Assembly: GCA_002746975.1 (NCBI GenBank) | Contig: NVXE01000006.1 | Coordinates: 1,109-41,873, forward strand | Length of the DNA stretch: 40,765 nt | From: Bacteroidota bacterium | GTDB lineage: Bacteria; Bacteroidota; Bacteroidia; Flavobacteriales_D; Sanyastnellaceae | Direction: 5' to 3' | Shown here: in pieces, positions 33,675 to 40,765 of the stretch | Layout: each line of letters begins with the position of its first letter | Position numbering within the stretch: position 1 is the first letter of the stretch | Notes under the pieces: generated by a model | Told to the model about the DNA's origin: nothing | The model's input: the letters and a program-made list of their open reading frames with translations, nothing else | Databases searched by the model: none | Program-made: the position numbers and the translations under genes

Positions 33675-33854
33675 ATACTAAAGTTGGGGGTAATGCAAAA
33701 AAAGAGCCAACCGCACAAATAGCACATTTGGTTTTTTGCCGACACACAGGCAAACCATAAAAAACCAAAAGAGCTGTTTTTTAGCCTACATTCGGACAAA
33801 AAACGAAACAGAAAAAGTAACTTTACAAACTGAATAAAAGGACAAAAAATATAG
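33675..33854. other. Hairpin-rich non-coding segment at the island edge
   Basis: No gene is seen in these 180 bases. An 11-bp inverted repeat (TTTGGTTTTTT at 33727-33737, AAAAAACCAAA at 33759-33769) encloses a smaller hairpin TTTGCC / GGCAAA with loop GACACACA. It separates ordinary lipid genes from the restriction-modification operon and presumably also holds that operon's promoter. It may be an insertion boundary remnant, a terminator or a structured leader. Confidence 0.5.
33727..33769. repeat. Nested inverted repeat
   Basis: Perfect 11-bp arms at 33727-33737 and 33759-33769. Inside, TTTGCC (33735-33740) and GGCAAA (33749-33754) form an alternative 6-bp stem around GACACACA. The two stems share bases and so could be mutually exclusive structures. 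Confidence 0.65.
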
Positions 33855-35423
33855 ATGGCAAAAAAAGTAATAAAAGAGAAATCAATAGAAGAAACACTTT
33901 GGCAATCGTGTGATAAATTGAGAGGTTCAGTTGAGCCAGCAGAATACAAACACGTTGTTCTTGGACTTATCTTCCTAAAATTCGCCAGCGACAAATTTGA
34001 AGAACGCAGAAAAGAACTGATTGCAGAAGGCAAAGAGAAATATGTGGAAATGAAAGATTTCTACACTATGAAAAATGTGTTCTTTTTAGATGAAATTTCT
34101 CGTTGGAGCTACATTATCAAAAATGCCAAACAAAACGACATTTCTTTAAAAATTGATACTGCTTTAAATACCATTGAGAAAAACAATCCTGCTCTGAAAG
34201 GAGCATTGCCCGATAATTACTTTTCTCGCTTAGCCTTAGACAAAACAAAACTTGCCTCTTTATTAGACACAGTCAACGATATTGACACGCTCAAAGACAA
34301 CGGACAAGATGTTATCGGAAGAGTTTACGAATACTTTTTAGGAAAATTTGCTCTTAAAGAAAGTAGCGGAAAAGGTAAAGGAGAATTCTACACACCAAAA
34401 ACAATTGTAAACCTAATTGCCGAATTAATAGAACCATACAAAGGAATCATTTATGACCCTTGTTGTGGAACTGGCGGAATGTTTGTGCAATCCATAAAAT
34501 TTATTGAAAATCACCAAGGAACAAAAAAAGAAGTTTCTATTTACGGACAAGAAAATACGCCAACAACTTACAAATTAGCAAAAATGAATCTTGCCATTAG
34601 AGGAATTTCGGCAAACCTTGGCGAAAAACACGCAGACACTTTTGCAAACGACCAACATAAAGATCTGAAAGCTGATTACATAATGGCTAATCCACCTTTT
34701 AACCTGAAAGATTGGAGAGGCGAAAATGAACTATTGGACGACCCGCGTTGGATGGGCTACGAAGTGCCACCAAAAAGCAATGCAAATTACGGTTGGATTC
34801 TCAATATGGTTTCCAAACTTTCCGAAAATGGAGTTGCAGGTTTTATACTTGCCAACGGTGCATTATCTGGTGGCGGTGAGGAATACAAAATCCGTAGAAA
34901 ACTAATTGAAAACAATTTGGTTGAAGCCATTATCATAATTCCAAGAAACACCTTTTACACAACCGACATTAGCGTAACGCTTTGGATTCTCAACAAAAAT
35001 AAAAAAGAGAGAACCGCCCACATAAACAACACGGATAAAAAATACCGTAACCGAGAAAAAGAAATCTTGTTTATGGATTTAAGGCGTTGGGGAAGTGAAT
35101 ACGAAAAGAAGTATGTACAACTAACCGAACAAGACATTGAAAAAGTAGCTCTCAATTATCACAATTGGCAACAAACCGATTTTGAGACAATTTATAAAGA
35201 TATACCCGAGTTTTGCAAATCTGCAAGTTTTGAAGATTTAGAAGCCAACGACTTTTCCCTTGTACCAAGTAAATACATTGAGTTTGTAGACAGAGACAGC
35301 GGAATTGATTTTGATACCGAAATGAAGCGAATCCAAAAAGATTTTAAAACACTGTTGCAAGAAGAAAAAGAATCGCAAAACCAATTGATTAACGCTTTCA
35401 AAACACTTGGCTACGAGCTATGA
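33855..35423 (+). CDS. hsdM: Type I restriction-modification DNA methyltransferase subunit M
   Basis: N6-adenine methyltransferase subunit of 522 residues that, with HsdS, methylates the host target sites. An HsdM N-terminal helical domain (ETLWQSCDKLRGSVEPAEYK, about 10-29) precedes the methylase fold. GEFYTPKTIVNLIAELIEP leads to the SAM-binding motif I DPCCGTGG (201-208), and the catalytic motif IV is NPPF (279-282). All motifs are intact and the length is normal. It is the first gene of the island operon. The stop is three bases before the KilA-N start, at a 7-bp tandem repeat. Confidence 0.96.
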   Translation: MAKKVIKEKSIEETLWQSCDKLRGSVEPAEYKHVVLGLIFLKFASDKFEERRKELIAEGKEKYVEMKDFYTMKNVFFLDEISRWSYIIKNAKQNDISLKIDTALNTIEKNNPALKGALPDNYFSRLALDKTKLASLLDTVNDIDTLKDNGQDVIGRVYEYFLGKFALKESSGKGKGEFYTPKTIVNLIAELIEPYKGIIYDPCCGTGGMFVQSIKFIENHQGTKKEVSIYGQENTPTTYKLAKMNLAIRGISANLGEKHADTFANDQHKDLKADYIMANPPFNLKDWRGENELLDDPRWMGYEVPPKSNANYGWILNMVSKLSENGVAGFILANGALSGGGEEYKIRRKLIENNLVEAIIIIPRNTFYTTDISVTLWILNKNKKERTAHINNTDKKYRNREKEILFMDLRRWGSEYEKKYVQLTEQDIEKVALNYHNWQQTDFETIYKDIPEFCKSASFEDLEANDFSLVPSKYIEFVDRDSGIDFDTEMKRIQKDFKTLLQEEKESQNQLINAFKTLGYEL

Positions 35424-35432
35424 GCTATGAGC
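35415..35432 (+). repeat. 7-bp tandem repeat at the hsdM/kilA-N junction
   Basis: GAGCTAT is repeated two and a half times (35415-35421, 35422-35428, GAGC at 35429-35432). It contains the hsdM stop and two ATG triplets (35420 and 35427). Only the second is in frame with the KilA-N gene; the first encodes just seven codons. Loss of one unit would give a direct ATGA stop-start overlap. Confidence 0.7.
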
Positions 35433-36269
35433 AAAAAGAATAAAAAAATAGAGGTTCAAGGACGAGAAATAACGGTCTTTTATACAAAAGAGCAAGACTT
35501 TATCTCCTTAACGGATATTGCAAAGCGTAAATCTGATGACCCTAGTGCGGTTATTGGTAATTGGATGAGAAACAGAAATACAATTGAATTTTTAGGGATT
35601 TGGGAATCCCTTTATAACCCCGATTTTAAACCCCTCGAATTCGAGGGGTTTAGAAAACAGGCTGGATTAAATGCTTTTACGCTTTCTGCTAAAAAATGGA
35701 CTGAAACAATCAATGCTAAAGGGTTTATTGTTAAATCGGGAAGATATGGCGGGACTTATGCTCATAAAGACATTGCATTCAAATTTGCTAGTTGGATTTC
35801 AGTTGAGTTTGAACTTTATCTGATTAAAGAGTTTCAACGCTTAAAAACAGTTGAAACTAAAGAGTTAGAATGGGATGTAAAAAGGCAACTTACAAAAATT
35901 AACTACCGCATACATACCGATGCTGTAAAAGAGAATTTACTTCCCGAAAACCTTACTCCAAAACAAACAAGTATTGTTTATGCCAACGAAGCCGATGTGT
36001 TGAATATGGCACTCTTTGGAAAAACTGCTAAACAGTGGCGAGATGAAAACCCCGACAAAAAGGGAAATATTAGAGATTATGCCAATGTAAGCCAACTGGT
36101 TTGCTTGATAAATCTTGAAAACCTGAATGCCGTTTTTATTAACGATGGATACGAACAAAGTGAGCGATTGGTAAAATTGAACCAAATTGCTATTTCGCAG
36201 ATGAAAATTTTATTGCAGGATAAATCGGTAAAAATGTTAAACCCTAAAAAAGAGAATGCTGATGAATAG
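35427..36269 (+). CDS. KilA-N domain protein
   Basis: A 280-residue protein whose N-terminal part (about 15-130) is a KilA-N DNA-binding domain: YTKEQDFISLTDIAKRK, WMRNRNTIEFLGIWE, NPDFKPLEFEGFRKQAGLNA and SGRYGGTYAHKDIAFKFASW are characteristic. The C-terminal half is helical and unassigned, with WRDENPDKKGNIRDYANVSQ. KilA-N proteins occur in phages and large DNA viruses and, by family knowledge, also inside bacterial type I R-M loci; their role there is not known. It lies between hsdM and hsdS, overlapping hsdS by 14 bases, so it is made together with the enzyme. Regulation of the operon or sensing of phage DNA are possible roles (inference). Confidence 0.92.
   Translation: MSKKNKKIEVQGREITVFYTKEQDFISLTDIAKRKSDDPSAVIGNWMRNRNTIEFLGIWESLYNPDFKPLEFEGFRKQAGLNAFTLSAKKWTETINAKGFIVKSGRYGGTYAHKDIAFKFASWISVEFELYLIKEFQRLKTVETKELEWDVKRQLTKINYRIHTDAVKENLLPENLTPKQTSIVYANEADVLNMALFGKTAKQWRDENPDKKGNIRDYANVSQLVCLINLENLNAVFINDGYEQSERLVKLNQIAISQMKILLQDKSVKMLNPKKENADE
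35594..35652. repeat. Two adjacent hairpins inside the KilA-N gene
   Basis: AGGGATT / AATCCCT (35594-35600 and 35605-35611, loop TGGG) is followed by a perfect palindrome with core CCCCTCGAATTCGAGGGG (35631-35648), extending to 26 bases (35627-35652). The encoded residues (NPDFKPLEFEGFRKQ) match the KilA-N family pattern without an insertion, so this is not an inserted element. Confidence 0.75.
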
Positions 36270-37389
36270 CTATAAACGATTGGGCGATTACATACAGTTG
36301 GTGGATAAACGAAACAGAGATTTAGCGGTTACAAATCTTTTGGGTATTAATATTTTCAAGAATTATATGCCTTCTGTTGCCAATCAAACAGGACTTGATT
36401 TATCCAAATACAAAGTAGTTTCAAAAGGACAATTTGCAACTAACTTAATGCACGTCAATAGAGATGAGGTTTTACCAGTTGCATTATATACTGATGAAAA
36501 ACCTGCTCTTGTTTCACCTGCCTATAAAACTTTTGAAGTCATTGATGAAAACGAATTACTTCCTGAATTTTTAATGATGGAGTTTCAAAGACCTGAATTT
36601 GATAGAAAAGCTTGGACTTATTGCGATTCGAGTGTTAGAGGTGGTTTAGAATGGGATAGGCTTTGTGATATGGAAATTCCTGATATTAACATTGACGAAC
36701 AACGCAAATATGTAGCACTTTACAAAGGCTTGTTAAATAACCAAAAAGTATATGAAAACAGCTTGGACGATTTGCAGTTGATTTGTGATACTTATATGGA
36801 CACTTTAAAAGAAAGAGATTTACAACCAATAAGGAATTCAGTTGAATTAGTTGACAATCGGAATAATGATGGTTCAAATACAAATCTTCTCGGAATAAAC
36901 GTGAAGAAAGTTTTTATGCCTTCAAAAGCGAAAACAACCAAAGCTAATTTAGTGAAGTACAAAATTATTGAAAAAGGACAATTTGCTTATTCTGCAATGC
37001 AAGTTGGAAGAGATGAGACTGTGAGAGTTGTTCTTTATTCCAGTGATGAGTCAGCTATCATATCACCTGCATACAGTGTTTTTCAAGTAAAAAAAGAGGC
37101 TGAAATATTGCCTGAATTTCTAATGCTATGGTTTTATCGCCCAGAATTTAATAGGTATGGTTGGTTTATTAGTGATAGTAGTGTTAGAGCAAGTTTAGAA
37201 TGGGAACGATTTAGTGATATTGAAGTTCCTGTTCCCGATATAGAAATACAAAAAGCCATAGTAACCATTTATCACACTTTGGAAACTCGTAAACGGATAA
37301 ATGAGCAGTTAAAAGATAGTATCAAACCGCTTTGCCCTGTTTTAATGCGTGGGGTTGTGGAGGAACTTAAAATGGAGGAAGTTTTATGA
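36256..37389 (+). CDS. hsdS: Type I restriction-modification specificity subunit S
   Basis: DNA-recognition subunit of 377 residues that sets the bipartite target of the type I enzyme. Two target-recognition halves are visible. Half one (about 5-150) contains TNLLGINIFKNYMPS, KGQFATNLMHVNRDE and SSVRGGLEWDR. Half two (about 195-345) contains TNLLGINVKKVFMPS, KGQFAYSAMQVGRDE and SSVRASLEWER. Each is followed by a helical conserved region (about 155-190 and 335-375). The two halves are clearly homologous. The frame starts at ATG 36256 (or ATG 36262), overlapping the KilA-N gene by 14 bases, and ends by ATGA overlap with the next gene. Confidence 0.9.
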   Translation: MLMNSYKRLGDYIQLVDKRNRDLAVTNLLGINIFKNYMPSVANQTGLDLSKYKVVSKGQFATNLMHVNRDEVLPVALYTDEKPALVSPAYKTFEVIDENELLPEFLMMEFQRPEFDRKAWTYCDSSVRGGLEWDRLCDMEIPDINIDEQRKYVALYKGLLNNQKVYENSLDDLQLICDTYMDTLKERDLQPIRNSVELVDNRNNDGSNTNLLGINVKKVFMPSKAKTTKANLVKYKIIEKGQFAYSAMQVGRDETVRVVLYSSDESAIISPAYSVFQVKKEAEILPEFLMLWFYRPEFNRYGWFISDSSVRASLEWERFSDIEVPVPDIEIQKAIVTIYHTLETRKRINEQLKDSIKPLCPVLMRGVVEELKMEEVL

Positions 37390-39176
37390 AAATTAAAGAA
37401 ATAACAATTGAAAATTATAGAGGAATAAAGAATTTTCAAAAAATTCAATTATCCAATTTTACTTCTATTGTTGGAAGAAATGATTCTGGAAAGTCAATAG
37501 TTTTAAACGCAGTTGCTTCATTTTTAAATATCAAAGATTATCCTGTTACTCATTACGATTTTAATGAATTGGAAAACCCAATAACAATTGAATGTTGTTT
37601 TGAAAAAGAAAATATTGCAGAAATATTAGAAGCAAAAATTAAAACTAAAATTAAAAAGGCAGATGGTCTTGAAGAATTTTTAGTTGATATTTTGATAGAT
37701 AATCGTTTAACCATAAGAAAAATAATCAATGCACCAAAAAAAGCATTCGATAGTGAACAAATTTTGATAAGCGATTATGATTCTGATGACTTTTCTTTTT
37801 TATATGGAAAGTCTGATGATGAATTAAACCAGATTCTTGAAAAATATGGAATAGAGATACCTGTTGAAGGTAAAGGGAGAAATTCTAAAATTGAAAAAAT
37901 AAAGTATATAAAAGAGTATTGCCAAGATAATGCTATTCCTACAATAAACAGATATATAGATGATGAATACAAGGTTACCTCATTATTACCTGATGTTGAA
38001 TTATTTGTTTCTGATTACGGGTTAGAAGCGGATACTAAATTTAAATCAAATTCAGTATCTGAAATACAACTTTATTTAACAGAAGAGTCTAAGGAAGAGA
38101 AGAAACTTGCATTAGTTCAGCAGGAAATTGAAAATGAAATGCAAAAAGAAGCAACTTCTGTTAAATCATATATGCAAGATTATGTATCAAGCCTTAACAA
38201 GGTAGAAATAAAACCCACTATAAGTTGGAAAGATGCAATAAAAAGTGTGGATGTTTCTTTTCAATTTGATGGAGATGATAAACTAATTCCAATGAGTCAT
38301 AAAGGCACAGGATACAGACGTTTGTTTATGGTTGCCCGATTTAGGTACCTTGCGGAAAAGAAGAAAGGAAATAATATTGTCTATTTAATTGAAGAACCTG
38401 AAACATTTCTTCATCCTTCAGCACAAGAGGATTTAATTAATGCTTTTAATGATTTATCAGAAGATAATCAGATTTTAATATCTACTCATTCACCAGTATT
38501 TGTAGGTGCAACAGATATAAGTTCAGTTGTTTTATGCAAAAAGGAAGAGCAATCTATTTATGAAACAACCACAGAAGAAAATAAAATAGATTTTATAAAT
38601 GAAATAATTCAAGAATTGGGTGTAAAGCCATCATTTAATCTTCGTGATGATTTTGATAAAATCCTTTTTGTTGAAGGCAAAGATGATTTGGAATTTTACA
38701 AAAAGGTTACATTTGAATTGATAGGTAAAGATTTAGAAGAGAAAGTACTTATTCTTCCAGTTGGAGGAAGTAGCGTTGATAGTTTTGTTAATATATCGTA
38801 TTTCAAAAATAATGGTAGAGATTTATTCTTGATACTTGATAGCGATAAAGGATTATTAATTAGAGACCCAAGGAAACCAGAAATTCAGATTAAATCTTCT
38901 GACAACTTTAATGAGAATTTTGGAAAGTCTTATCTTTTAAAAAAATCAAATATTGAGAGCTACTTTCACCCAAGAGCTCTTGAACGAAACTATCATCACA
39001 TAAAGAATGACTCTTTACATTTTTTTGATGATGATGAAGATTTAAAAGAATTTTTCAAGGAGAAAGGAATTAACAAAAAACACAATGTTAATATTTTCAA
39101 TGAAATGACAAAGGAAGAATGGGAAGCAGTTATTGAAGAAGAGTTAGTTGAATTTTTAACAGAATTGGTTAATTAA
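37386..39176 (+). CDS. OLD-family ATPase with TOPRIM nuclease domain
   Basis: A 596-residue protein with an ABC-type ATPase and a C-terminal TOPRIM nuclease domain, as in overcoming-lysogenization-defect (OLD) enzymes and the GajA protein of Gabija. Walker A is GRNDSGKS (30-37), a signature-like region is SHKGTGYRRLFMVARF (about 305-320), Walker B is VYLIEEPETF (332-341), and the switch His is in STHSPVF. The TOPRIM residues are Glu430 in LFVEGKDD and Asp485/Asp487 in LILDSDKG, all intact. It overlaps hsdS by 4 bases and hsdR by 1 base, so it is embedded in the R-M operon. No UvrD-like GajB helicase is adjacent. An added antiphage role is inferred; DNA cleavage is family knowledge. Confidence 0.9.
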   Translation: MKIKEITIENYRGIKNFQKIQLSNFTSIVGRNDSGKSIVLNAVASFLNIKDYPVTHYDFNELENPITIECCFEKENIAEILEAKIKTKIKKADGLEEFLVDILIDNRLTIRKIINAPKKAFDSEQILISDYDSDDFSFLYGKSDDELNQILEKYGIEIPVEGKGRNSKIEKIKYIKEYCQDNAIPTINRYIDDEYKVTSLLPDVELFVSDYGLEADTKFKSNSVSEIQLYLTEESKEEKKLALVQQEIENEMQKEATSVKSYMQDYVSSLNKVEIKPTISWKDAIKSVDVSFQFDGDDKLIPMSHKGTGYRRLFMVARFRYLAEKKKGNNIVYLIEEPETFLHPSAQEDLINAFNDLSEDNQILISTHSPVFVGATDISSVVLCKKEEQSIYETTTEENKIDFINEIIQELGVKPSFNLRDDFDKILFVEGKDDLEFYKKVTFELIGKDLEEKVLILPVGGSSVDSFVNISYFKNNGRDLFLILDSDKGLLIRDPRKPEIQIKSSDNFNENFGKSYLLKKSNIESYFHPRALERNYHHIKNDSLHFFDDDEDLKEFFKEKGINKKHNVNIFNEMTKEEWEAVIEEELVEFLTELVN

Positions 39177-40765
39177 TGAAATTCACAGAAGCAAAATTAG
39201 AACAGGCTTTTATTGAGCTTTTAGGAAATGAAGATTTTCCACATTACTTGGGAAATACTATTTCCCGAGCAGATGATGAAGTATTGATTGAAGAGGATTT
39301 GAAAAACTATTTGCTTAATCGTTACAAAAAAGAACAACTTACCGAAATAGAAACCCAATCTATTATTCTTCAACTAAAAACACTTTCTTCTGCTGACCTA
39401 TACGAGAGTAACAAGAAAATAATGCGTTGGCTTGCTGATGGCTTTATTCTGAAAAGAGAAGACAGAAAACAAAAAGACATTCACATAGAACTGATTGATT
39501 ATTCAGGACTTCCACCACAAACACAAAGTCGTGATTTAGATAATATTGTAGCCGAACAAAAAGCCAAATATGGCAAAGACCATAATATCTACAAATTTGT
39601 AAATCAATTGGAGATTGTTGGTACAGAAAAACGAATTCCTGATGGCATAATTTACATAAATGGTTTGCCAATTGTGGTATTTGAATTCAAATCTGCCATT
39701 AGAGAAGAAGCCACAATACACAATGCTTACGAACAATTAACAATTCGCTATAAAAGAGATATTCCCGAACTTTTTAAATATAATGCCTTTTGTGTAATAA
39801 GTGATGGCGTAAATAATAAAGCAGGTTCATTTTTTGCCCCTTACGAATTCTATTATGCTTGGCGTAGAGTTGCAGGATTGGCAAAAGATGTAGATGGTAT
39901 TGATAGTATGTTTACCCTTGTTCAAGGTATGCTAAACCAAAATAGGTTAAGGGATATAATCCAAAACTTCATTTACATTCCTGACACTTCTAAAAAGGAT
40001 GAAAAAATAGTTTGTCGCTATCCTCAATATTATGCAGCTCGTGTGTTGTATGAGAATATTAAAAAAGCCGAAAAGCCTGATGGAGATGGAAAAGGTGGAA
40101 CTTACTTTGGAGCAACGGGAAGCGGTAAAAGTTTTACGATGTTGTATCTCACTCGACTACTAATGAAAAGTGAGCATTTTGAAAGTCCAACCATTGTACT
40201 CATAACTGACAGAACAGATTTAGACGACCAACTTTCAGGACAGTTCACAAATGCTAAAAGTTTTATTGGTGACAATAATGTAAAAAGTGTAGAAAGCAGA
40301 GCCGAGTTAAGAACCTTGCTTCAAGGTAGAAAAAGCGGTGGCGTTTTCTTAACCACTATTCACAAATTCACAGAAGACACAGAATTACTAACTGAAAGAA
40401 CTAACGTAATTTGTATTTCAGATGAAGCACATAGAAGTCAAACCAATTTAGACCAAAAAGTAAAAGTAACTTCCAATGGTGTAAAAAAGACTTTTGGTTT
40501 TGCTAAATATTTACACGATTCATTACCTAATGCCACTTTTGTAGGATTTACAGGAACGCCAATTGACGCAACTTTAGATGTTTTTGGGAAAGTAGTTGAT
40601 GCTTACACAATGACAGAATCTGTAAGAGATGAAATTACTGTACGACTTGTTTATGAAGGACGAGCAGCCAAAGTTGCTTTACACAATAGAGAATTAGAAA
40701 AAATAGAAAAGTATTATGAAGAAGCTGCGGAAGAAGGTGCTAACGAATACCAAATAGAAGAAAGT
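39176..40765 (+). CDS. hsdR: Type I restriction enzyme motor/nuclease subunit R (3' end cut off)
   Basis: The first 530 residues of the DNA-translocating and cleaving subunit; a full protein would be about 1000 residues. The PD-(D/E)xK nuclease site is seen as PDG (Asp156) and EFK (Glu170, Lys172). The helicase motor follows: Walker A GATGSGKS (312-319), ITDRTDLDDQ, DEAH (416-419) and motif III GFTGTPID. All catalytic residues visible are intact, so the gene appears functional as far as the window goes. Its ATG shares one base with the OLD-gene stop (TAATG), the tightest coupling in the operon. Confidence 0.95.
   Translation, partial: MKFTEAKLEQAFIELLGNEDFPHYLGNTISRADDEVLIEEDLKNYLLNRYKKEQLTEIETQSIILQLKTLSSADLYESNKKIMRWLADGFILKREDRKQKDIHIELIDYSGLPPQTQSRDLDNIVAEQKAKYGKDHNIYKFVNQLEIVGTEKRIPDGIIYINGLPIVVFEFKSAIREEATIHNAYEQLTIRYKRDIPELFKYNAFCVISDGVNNKAGSFFAPYEFYYAWRRVAGLAKDVDGIDSMFTLVQGMLNQNRLRDIIQNFIYIPDTSKKDEKIVCRYPQYYAARVLYENIKKAEKPDGDGKGGTYFGATGSGKSFTMLYLTRLLMKSEHFESPTIVLITDRTDLDDQLSGQFTNAKSFIGDNNVKSVESRAELRTLLQGRKSGGVFLTTIHKFTEDTELLTERTNVICISDEAHRSQTNLDQKVKVTSNGVKKTFGFAKYLHDSLPNATFVGFTGTPIDATLDVFGKVVDAYTMTESVRDEITVRLVYEGRAAKVALHNRELEKIEKYYEEAAEEGANEYQIEES

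Follow-up and report, generated by a model that had tools for sequence, protein, structure and literature searches.

A type I restriction-modification operon in a Bacteroidota genome with an OLD-type gene as probable exchangeable cargo between hsdS and hsdR

Type I restriction-modification (R-M) operons can hold genes other than hsdM, hsdS and hsdR; prrC, for example, lies between hsdS and hsdR. Its host locus, ecoprrI, is of type Ic (PMC12707154). EcoprrI keeps PrrC silent and T4 Stp activates it, and PrrC orthologues are reported to be linked to type Ic systems without exception (PMC2610378). In Campylobacter jejuni, rlo genes (between hsdR and hsdS) and mlo genes (between hsdS and hsdM) were named by Miller et al. 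2005 (via PMC5183652, PMC2610378). In a type I locus of enteropathogenic Escherichia coli (EPEC) the gap between hsdS and hsdR holds DarTG2, and the DarTG2-containing island defends in experiments (PMC12255303). TgvAB, encoded between hsdR and hsdS on Vibrio pathogenicity island 2 (VPI-2) of V. cholerae, gives equal protection when HsdR is inactivated (PMC11411939). Defences embedded in other defences were described in a 2024 preprint by Payne and colleagues (as cited in PMC12255303 and PMC12988326). These sources are drawn on in excerpt, here and below. Genes in both hsd gaps are already known as a kind, and the locus described here adds another case. It lies in the window, the whole stretch of 40,765 nucleotides that was analysed (Bacteroidota bacterium, contig NVXE01000006.1), where an OLD-type ATPase/TOPRIM gene stands between hsdS and hsdR, and a KilA-N gene between hsdM and hsdS. 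The genes of the operon are as follows.

33855 to 35423, + strand: hsdM, type I adenine methyltransferase, 522 aa (Pfam N6_Mtase 332.8 bits, HsdM_N 86.6; PADLOC MTase_I 508 bits)
35427 to 36269, + strand: KilA-N protein in the hsdM-hsdS slot, 280 aa (Pfam KilA-N 76.1 bits; PADLOC PDC-S22 443.1 bits)
36256 to 37389, + strand: hsdS, specificity subunit, 377 aa (Pfam Methylase_S 33.2 bits; PADLOC Specificity_I 277.5 bits)
37386 to 39176, + strand: OLD-type ATPase/TOPRIM gene in the hsdS-hsdR slot, 596 aa (AAA_15 150.1 bits; PADLOC Old 144.4, AriA 144.6)
39176 to 40765, + strand: hsdR, first 530 aa in the window (Pfam HSDR_N, SWI2_SNF2; NCBIfam hsdR 295.9 bits, cut-off 284.55)

The five-gene order, intact and nearly gapless, had been proposed in an earlier reading of this sequence (the original prediction), and is borne out by the open reading frames (ORFs) and Pfam matches. 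The hsdR gene runs out of the window; its full ORF in the contig encodes 1068 aa (6285-9491 of L004, window-equivalent end 42382), of which one base, at the end of the window, is undetermined. As called, a 3-base gap separates hsdM from the KilA-N gene, and overlaps of 14, 4 and 1 bases follow at the KilA-N/hsdS, hsdS/OLD and OLD/hsdR junctions. These values stand as predicted, except that the true KilA-N/hsdS overlap is probably 8 bases, because translation from a further ATG, at 36262, gives a protein (MNSYK...) whose beginning aligns with that of the L002 homologue (MSYK...). The overlaps suggest that all five genes are co-expressed. The ORF list of the window and the contig continuation contains no further gene between hsdM and hsdR, so the OLD-type gene has, as had been predicted, no UvrD partner in the operon. 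HsdM, HsdS and HsdR subunits are encoded together, which places the operon among type I R-M systems; methylation and restriction are predicted activities. For placement in the type IC (EcoR124/EcoprrI) subtype, the subunits were compared with solved structures: HsdM matches 3khk (364 bits), 7vru (186), EcoR124II (158) and EcoKI (67), and HsdR matches five sequences at 88.8-91.3 bits, all of them HsdR chains of 1038 aa and one of them EcoR124II.

As with rlo and mlo, non-hsd ORFs lie between hsd genes here and vary among related loci; rlo and mlo belong to other hsd loci and species, and the excerpted accounts describe neither an OLD gene nor scars of the hsdR 5' end. The likeness to prrC lies in an ABC-ATPase effector inside a type I operon, and a PrrC-like protein occupies the same slot in a related locus, L047. 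However, PrrC has an anticodon nuclease and the window's protein a TOPRIM region; in Pfam the latter shows no AAA_13 match at E ≤ 1 and a TOPRIM match instead. The EPEC locus differs in its toxin-antitoxin cargo and in the RptR repressor gene upstream of the operon, according to its excerpted description. TgvAB is likewise an embedded defence independent of the HsdR nuclease, and GmrSD_N proteins are encoded in the L046 slot and, in L088, upstream of hsdR; TgvAB differs in being a modification-dependent GmrSD-type restriction system rather than an OLD nuclease.

With OLD and GajA the window's protein shares an N-terminal ABC ATPase and a C-terminal TOPRIM region. In contrast with Gabija, the gene lies inside a type I operon that encodes no GajB UvrD-type helicase (the related locus L049 has both GajA and GajB). 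A retron of the Eco8 type would need a reverse transcriptase and a non-coding RNA beside the OLD gene; the operon has no reverse transcriptase gene, L004 gives no Rfam match at gathering score, and against the NCBIfam model of the Eco8 effector the OLD-type protein reaches 46.8 bits, far under the cut-off of 250. As the operon lacks a partner gene, membership of a Gabija or retron system was rejected. For PARIS, the AriA model matches the ATPase only (144.6 bits), the fused AriAB model reaches 58.8 bits against 144.4 for Old, and there is no separate sixth gene. No description of an OLD nuclease in an hsdS-hsdR gap, or of hsdR-start scars, was found in the excerpts covered by a word-based literature search, whose scope lay outside most subscription papers and all preprints.

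The hsdS-hsdR gap in related operons

HsdR relatives were found in 34 of 295 class genomes at E ≤ 1e-100 and in 17 of 395 phylum genomes at E ≤ 1e-200, in overlapping sets. The comparison set, built from relatives whose HsdR is close and whose upstream DNA is long enough, consists of 19 loci, the window and L002 (Lutibacter litoralis) included, with hsdM, hsdS and hsdR in view and HsdR at least 58% identical. It leaves out L087, L088, L093 and L097 (hsdM and hsdS not in view, or hsdR truncated), a 42%-identical HsdR family (L050, L098, L099), plasmid and E. coli loci that are told apart (L056-L059, L063-L065), L066 (an hsdR fragment), G508, G512 and G556 (contig begins inside hsdR), and places at 37% identity or less.

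The gap between hsdS and hsdR is filled in 17 of the 19 operons, with one to six ORFs of at least 80 aa each. The original prediction had held that rarity of the OLD gene in comparable loci would speak against it, and this is half the case: only two of the 19 hold a close orthologue of the window's gene, while the slot itself is nearly always occupied. OLD-type proteins in the wider sense (OLD or GajA) are present in five (the window, L002, L046, L049 and L090). The cargo of the other filled slots, typed by Pfam and PADLOC (the small ORFs of L045, L048 and L049 lay outside the scan), is as follows.

L002: OLD, Bro-N, AlbA_2
L040: Y1_Tnp-like, PDDEXK_3, RhuM
L041: SIR2-HerA (PADLOC 444 and 814 bits)
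L042: PDDEXK_4, AlbA_2
L043: one 188-aa ORF, sub-threshold match only
L044: Thoeris (ThsA 599, ThsB 189 bits), further TIR proteins, AlbA_2 fragment
L045: HATPase, YobI-ATPase, AlbA_2
L046: OLD-type, GmrSD_N (Pfam)
L047: PrrC-like AAA_13 (PDC-S06 888 bits; PrrC model 54), AlbA_2
L048: RelA/SpoT, AAA_15, PDDEXK_4
L049: Gabija (GajA 647, GajB 731 bits), AlbA_2, RhuM
L089: HipA (Pfam)
L090: PDC-M36A-like (82 bits), OLD-type, unmatched 687-aa protein, AlbA_2
L092: Shedu SduA (405 bits), unmatched protein
L094: SIR2, HerA, DUF6088, AbiEii (Pfam only)
L095: HamB-like helicase, two proteins without Pfam match

Outside the comparison set, L088 has its GmrSD_N protein upstream of hsdR, a Psychrobacter plasmid locus has one unmatched protein in the slot, and the slot of L059, a Chryseobacterium plasmid, holds as annotated a DUF4062 protein, a nucleotidyltransferase, an S-4TM protein and a DUF4145 protein. 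In the HsdR family at 42% identity, three of three loci (L050, L098, L099) lack cargo.

Operons that are almost the same in their R-M genes can carry different cargo. L040, L041 and L043 form one group of the HsdR tree, with HsdR 98.0-99.0% and HsdM 91.1-95.0% identical, yet their cargo differs, L040 and L043 having one related gene in common. The hsdS DNA of L041 and L043 is 95% identical; similarity ends 12 bp past the stop codon and returns 13 bp before hsdR. The PDDEXK_3 gene in the hsdS-hsdR slot of L040 has a 70% similar stretch in the hsdM-hsdS slot of L043, and SIR2 with HerA is found on two well-separated HsdR branches (L041, L094).

The boundaries of the cargo were examined by comparing the first 300 nt of each hsdR with its own hsdS-hsdR gap in 19 loci with cargo, namely the 17 of the comparison set together with L057 and L059. 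At E ≤ 1e-5 a second copy of the hsdR start is present in the gap of four of them (L040, L045, L059, L095); at the same threshold, none of 173 internal 300-nt hsdR pieces and none of 95 hsdM pieces matched. The copies are located as follows.

L040, 4644-4717: hsdR-start copy, 75 nt
L045, 6166-6202 and 10541-10617: hsdR-start copies, 37 nt and 77 nt respectively
L095, 10969-11054 of the reverse complement: hsdR-start copy, 86 nt
L059, 4463-4514, 7170-7259 and 7294-7369: hsdR-start (90 nt) and hsdS-end copies

Every hsdR copy opens at the start codon, and the copies lie between cargo modules. The arrangement is clearest in L059, where the order is hsdS, hsdS 3' copy, DUF4062, hsdR 5' copy, hsdS 3' copy, nucleotidyltransferase, S-4TM, DUF4145 and hsdR: two cassettes, each bounded by an hsdS end and an hsdR start. 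A DNA scan of all 33 hsdR loci gave a second copy in six of them; L040, L045, L059, L093 and L095 remain after L097, in which the hsdR start is missing, is dropped. L093, with hsdM and hsdS not in view, supplies the additional copy.

Since the slot holds varied genes, near-identical HsdR operons differ in their cargo and hsdR-start copies stand between modules, the OLD-type gene is read here as exchangeable cargo. The scars, the least expected part of these observations, would be explained by recombination between operons. A more specific proposal is that the hsdS-hsdR junction is a standing site of cassette exchange whose arms are the hsdS 3' end and the first 40-90 nt of hsdR, with scars left between stacked cassettes; a strain could then swap its second defence and keep M, S, R and a single operon. 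We regard this proposal as evenly poised between right and wrong.

Two features of the cargo may be recorded beside this. An AlbA_2 (Schlafen-type) protein, mostly with HATPase_c_4, is found near hsdR in seven of the 19 operons (L002, L042, L044 as a fragment, L045, L047, L049, L090) and might regulate the cargo or hsdR. Six proteins encoded upstream of hsdR have no Pfam match: L090 (687 aa), L092 (211 aa), L095 (277 and 207 aa), L093 (311 aa) and L057 (287 aa). Candidate new defence genes, with no match in Pfam (E ≤ 0.01) or PADLOC (E ≤ 1e-5), are those at L090 10304-12367, L095 8116-8949 (reverse complement), L057 6180-7043 and L093 1639-2574.

The OLD-type protein and its relatives

The protein has the two parts expected of the OLD family, an N-terminal ABC-type ATPase with Walker A, Walker B and H-loop, and a C-terminal TOPRIM region with conserved acidic residues.

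37386 to 38504, + strand: ABC-type ATPase domain, aa 1-373 (Pfam AAA_15; Walker A, E336/E337, H368)
38619 to 39173, + strand: C-terminal TOPRIM region, aa 412-596 (conserved acidic residues; predicted structure)

That its catalytic residues are intact, as originally noted, holds throughout: Walker A reads GRNDSGKS, with G30, G35 and K36, E336-E337 and H368 are in place, and the TOPRIM motifs E430-G431-x-x-D434 and D485-x-D487 are complete. In a C-terminal alignment of nine rows, E430, D434, D485 and a later lysine and glutamate are invariant. The model of the C-terminal region (pLDDT, the predicted local distance difference test, 76.9) is matched best by VIA-align to 6nk8, the OLD C-terminal region, with Z 10.0 over 157 residues at a root-mean-square deviation (rmsd) of 5.1 Å, and to OLD 6p74 with Z 9.2 over 144 residues at an rmsd of 3.5; Foldseek returned no row at E ≤ 0.001 for this model, its top row being GajA at 0.022. 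It is the invariant residues together with the match of this model to OLD proteins that identify the region as TOPRIM. For the full-length model the VIA-align rows are heads of the SMC, Rad50 and RecF type, and the 50 rows listed include neither OLD nor GajA, so that these rows are uninformative on family. Searched alone against the PDB, the protein matches the OLD nuclease 6p74 (E 2.2e-09) and AriA (8.4e-06), no GajA reaching 0.01. A profile search gives 6p74 at E 9.7e-45 and GajA at 6.7e-36, the latter partly circular as the profile includes the GajA of L049. By analogy with OLD and GajA, the protein is predicted to be a metal-dependent nuclease under ATP control.

L002 carries an OLD gene at the same hsdS junction, 85% identical to that of the window. 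DNA similarity is unbroken from the hsdS 3' end through the OLD gene, which indicates that the S-OLD junction is shared by descent; two extra genes follow in L002 between OLD and hsdR. A chance insertion of OLD in a single locus was therefore rejected. Between the two homologues the nonsynonymous divergence (dN) is 0.088 and the synonymous divergence (dS) 1.15, a dN/dS of about 0.08, and the gene looks constrained. The corresponding dN is 0.088 for HsdM, 0.099 for HsdR and 0.37 for HsdS; dS for HsdM and HsdR is 2.4-2.6, which is saturated. The GC content of the OLD gene is 27.9% (17.6 at third codon positions) versus 34-36% in the other four genes of the operon. Because of this saturation and the difference in base composition, the lower dS of OLD was not used for dating.

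Among 114 family genomes the only OLD match is the window's own. With the OLD profile, relatives at E ≤ 1e-40 appear in 11 of 395 genomes, one of them the window's, and three of the ten others lie in the hsdS-hsdR slot of the window's HsdR family (L046, L048, L049), the L048 match spanning the ATPase part only. In L113 an OLD-type gene stands just upstream of hsdM of a distant type I operon, and in L114 an OLD relative lies beside a UvrD-like gene. The OLD of L109 shares 53-55% identity with that of the window, and 309 bp beyond its gene lies one for a reverse transcriptase (PADLOC group UG39, 562 bits); the contig starts 707 bp before the OLD gene, and those bases match no hsd reference. The OLD relatives of L110, L111, L112 and L115 have no neighbour matching the reference set. 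L003 (an OLD relative at 33%) and L051-L055 show no match to hsd references within the retrieved stretch; L054 is cut just upstream of its OLD relative, and that of L055 adjoins a helicase/PLD-like protein (29%). As relatives are found both in the slot and in surroundings with no hsd gene in view, this type of effector appears to occur with and without R-M genes. An origin as a virus gene was set aside, no relative being confirmed in a scan of viral contigs that detects close relatives only.

Two of these places show further features. The distant type I operon of L113 (3998-9920) has a Fic protein in its own hsdS-hsdR gap, and the 309-bp gap in L109 (708-4553), between the OLD-type gene and the UG39 reverse transcriptase, could hold a non-coding RNA.

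The hsdM-hsdS gap and the operon edges

The KilA-N gene occupies the second gap, which is filled in three of the 19 operons, by KilA-N in the window and by a PDDEXK_3 protein in L042 and L043. Sixteen compared operons lack an insert here, and in 15 of them the called hsdM and hsdS overlap by 11 or 17 nt; in L092, the exception, hsdS has an earlier called start. The hexamer AGCTAT is found at 35416, 35423 and 36268, flanking the KilA-N insert on both sides, and is too short to serve as proof. Relatives of the KilA-N protein occur in 67 of 395 genomes of the class. L067 has KilA-N and hsdS of the window's R-M family with RhuM and an hsdR start behind them, hsdM not being in view. In L085, KilA-N lies between hsdM and hsdS of a distant type I operon (HsdM 28%), and the idea that this order is confined to the window's family was dropped. 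L072 has KilA-N beside weak type I matches; L069, which supplied references, L070 and L073 have it beside an Eco57I-type methylase and a helicase/PLD protein. The remaining 14 of 20 KilA-N places examined show no match to hsd or methylase references. KilA-N accompanies R-M genes in several settings, as judged from gene order, and independently of the OLD gene.

A reading of KilA-N and OLD as a single unit was rejected: they occupy separate slots, L002 has OLD without KilA-N between hsdM and hsdS, and L067 has KilA-N, hsdS and RhuM before hsdR. The KilA-N protein probably serves as a DNA-binding regulator or as an accessory factor in defence. Its PADLOC match at 443 bits is to the candidate PDC-S22; such PADLOC candidates (PDCs) mostly await experimental validation (PMC12988326). 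As side observations, L067 contains, at 429-829, two partial copies of the KilA-N 5' end upstream of the full gene, alike in kind to the hsdR scars, and in L069 (6084-16831) KilA-N is flanked by a helicase/PLD protein and an Eco57I-type methylase, which SIR2-like and HerA-like genes adjoin, making another mixed R-M/defence operon.

The operon as a whole looks like one insertion.

33675 to 40765, no strand: in-window part of the putative inserted island (flanking genes adjacent in six congeners)

Among nine further genomes of the genus, six (L117-L122) hold a match, 72-85% identical, to the gene on the left flank, which is sterol-desaturase-like as named by eye. Its neighbour in each of the six, in convergent orientation, is the gene found on the right flank of the operon in the window's genome (glycosyltransferase-like, also named by eye); in L117 the two are 62 bp apart. 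It is this empty site in six congeners that points to a single insertion. A seventh place, L123, with a 41% match to the left flank gene, was set aside. An exact 10-mer is found in inverted orientation at 33683-33692 and window-equivalent 42428-42437, near both operon edges, and is unique in the 52 kb of the window and L004. Terminal inverted repeats of the island were rejected, as shuffled left flanks score higher in local alignment than this pair, and so was a DNA hairpin right of hsdR (z -0.08).

Competing explanations and what the slot means

It is proposed that this type I R-M operon carries an exchangeable second defence module, the OLD-type gene being an occupant of the hsdS-hsdR cargo slot and KilA-N of a second, less used one between hsdM and hsdS. 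Cargo would be gained or swapped by recombination at the hsdS 3' end and the hsdR 5' end, as the relatives rather than the window suggest, and, to go by the overlaps, would be transcribed and translated with the hsd genes. In GajA and OLD, sensing of nucleotides or DNA ends is linked to the ATPase. In the window's protein the ATPase part may likewise sense a change brought by infection, in nucleotides or DNA ends, and then release the TOPRIM nuclease on nucleic acid, a second layer against phages that escape HsdR. The family and the company of the gene suggest a role in defence, and that OLD acts as an autonomous second layer is, in our judgement, the probable account, favoured over a guard of the PrrC kind. 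The layered defence originally predicted, with the embedded OLD as its likely second module, gains support from the recognised defence systems in the same gap of relatives and from embedded genes that defend elsewhere (PMC12255303, PMC11411939, as excerpted); the protection given by TgvAB with HsdR inactivated favours the autonomy of an embedded defence.

Several observations weigh against this account. The slot is empty in the sister loci L091 and L096, and the same gap holds no cargo in a locus on a Klebsiella plasmid or in the E. coli loci examined (L058, from the plasmid collection and with a broken hsdS, and L063-L065, three of 1114 genomes with a match; L065 has an insertion sequence inside hsdS). 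Neither an hsdS nor an hsdR scar is seen in the slot of the window itself, and 15 of the 19 cargo loci lack an hsdR scar. When the threshold is relaxed to E ≤ 1e-3, internal hsdR pieces also match in L046 (two) and L090 (three), and an hsdS piece matches over 24 nt within the cargo gene of L047. Pfam OLD-like_TOPRIM scores 20.3 bits, under its cut-off of 23.2, and the full-length model is weak (pLDDT 64.5; top Foldseek row a GajA chain at E 5.4e-14, TM-score 0.32). HsdM, OLD and HsdR are alike in protein divergence from L002, which fits co-inheritance and could fit functional coupling. Finally, the protection given by tgvAB alone falls 10- to 100-fold short of that of the entire cluster (PMC11411939, as excerpted).

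A PrrC-like guard is one rival account: the assembled Hsd complex would silence OLD, and inhibition of restriction by a phage would free it, leading to abortive infection. What keeps the guard a candidate is the place of prrC inside a type I locus and the PrrC-like protein in the slot of L047; the silencing of PrrC by EcoprrI, its activation by Stp and its type Ic linkage, described above, favour it as well, as does the similar divergence of HsdM, OLD and HsdR. We nevertheless consider it unlikely. The slot also accepts complete systems (Gabija, Thoeris, SIR2-HerA) and unrelated genes, OLD relatives at 33% and 53-55% have no hsd genes in view (L109 being cut upstream), and the OLD protein has a TOPRIM region in place of an AAA_13/PrrC match. 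Gabija and Thoeris have their own sensors. The original suggestion that OLD is triggered when restriction fails is for these reasons not supported: its relatives in L003 and L109 have no hsd genes in view, and other cargo of the slot brings its own sensors.

The gene might instead be a hitch-hiker, without an active defence role in this strain or with its partner, a UvrD helicase or a reverse transcriptase, lost. The single match among the family genomes would agree with this, and the L109 relative adjoins a reverse transcriptase and the L049 GajA has GajB, whereas the window has neither; but the motifs are intact, the gene is full length with no stop or frameshift and a low dN/dS, and it overlaps its neighbours at both junctions, which makes this explanation improbable. 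That OLD and KilA-N are accessory regulators of R-M itself, acting on HsdR activity or restriction alleviation with no separate defence, seems very improbable. Both genes do lie inside the operon with overlapping or near-abutting junctions, and genes of DNA-binding type recur in these operons (KilA-N, Bro-N, RhuM, AlbA_2/HATPase_c_4); against this, KilA-N is present in one and the window's OLD in two of the 19 operons, and cargo-free operons exist.

With a second, probably independent nuclease gene in this slot, the window's operon is one example of a known but little-mapped stacking and swapping of defences. Embedded genes in hsd loci were earlier noticed as single cases (rlo/mlo, prrC, darTG2, tgvAB); here the slot of one HsdR family can be read as a cassette rack, with near-same M and R, differing cargo and hsdR-start scars at some boundaries. 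The slot offers a direct route to new defence genes, the unmatched proteins upstream of hsdR among them, and lets one ask whether R-M operons spread and switch other defences. For the choice between a guard and an autonomous second layer, the OLD gene of the window would be a clean test case.

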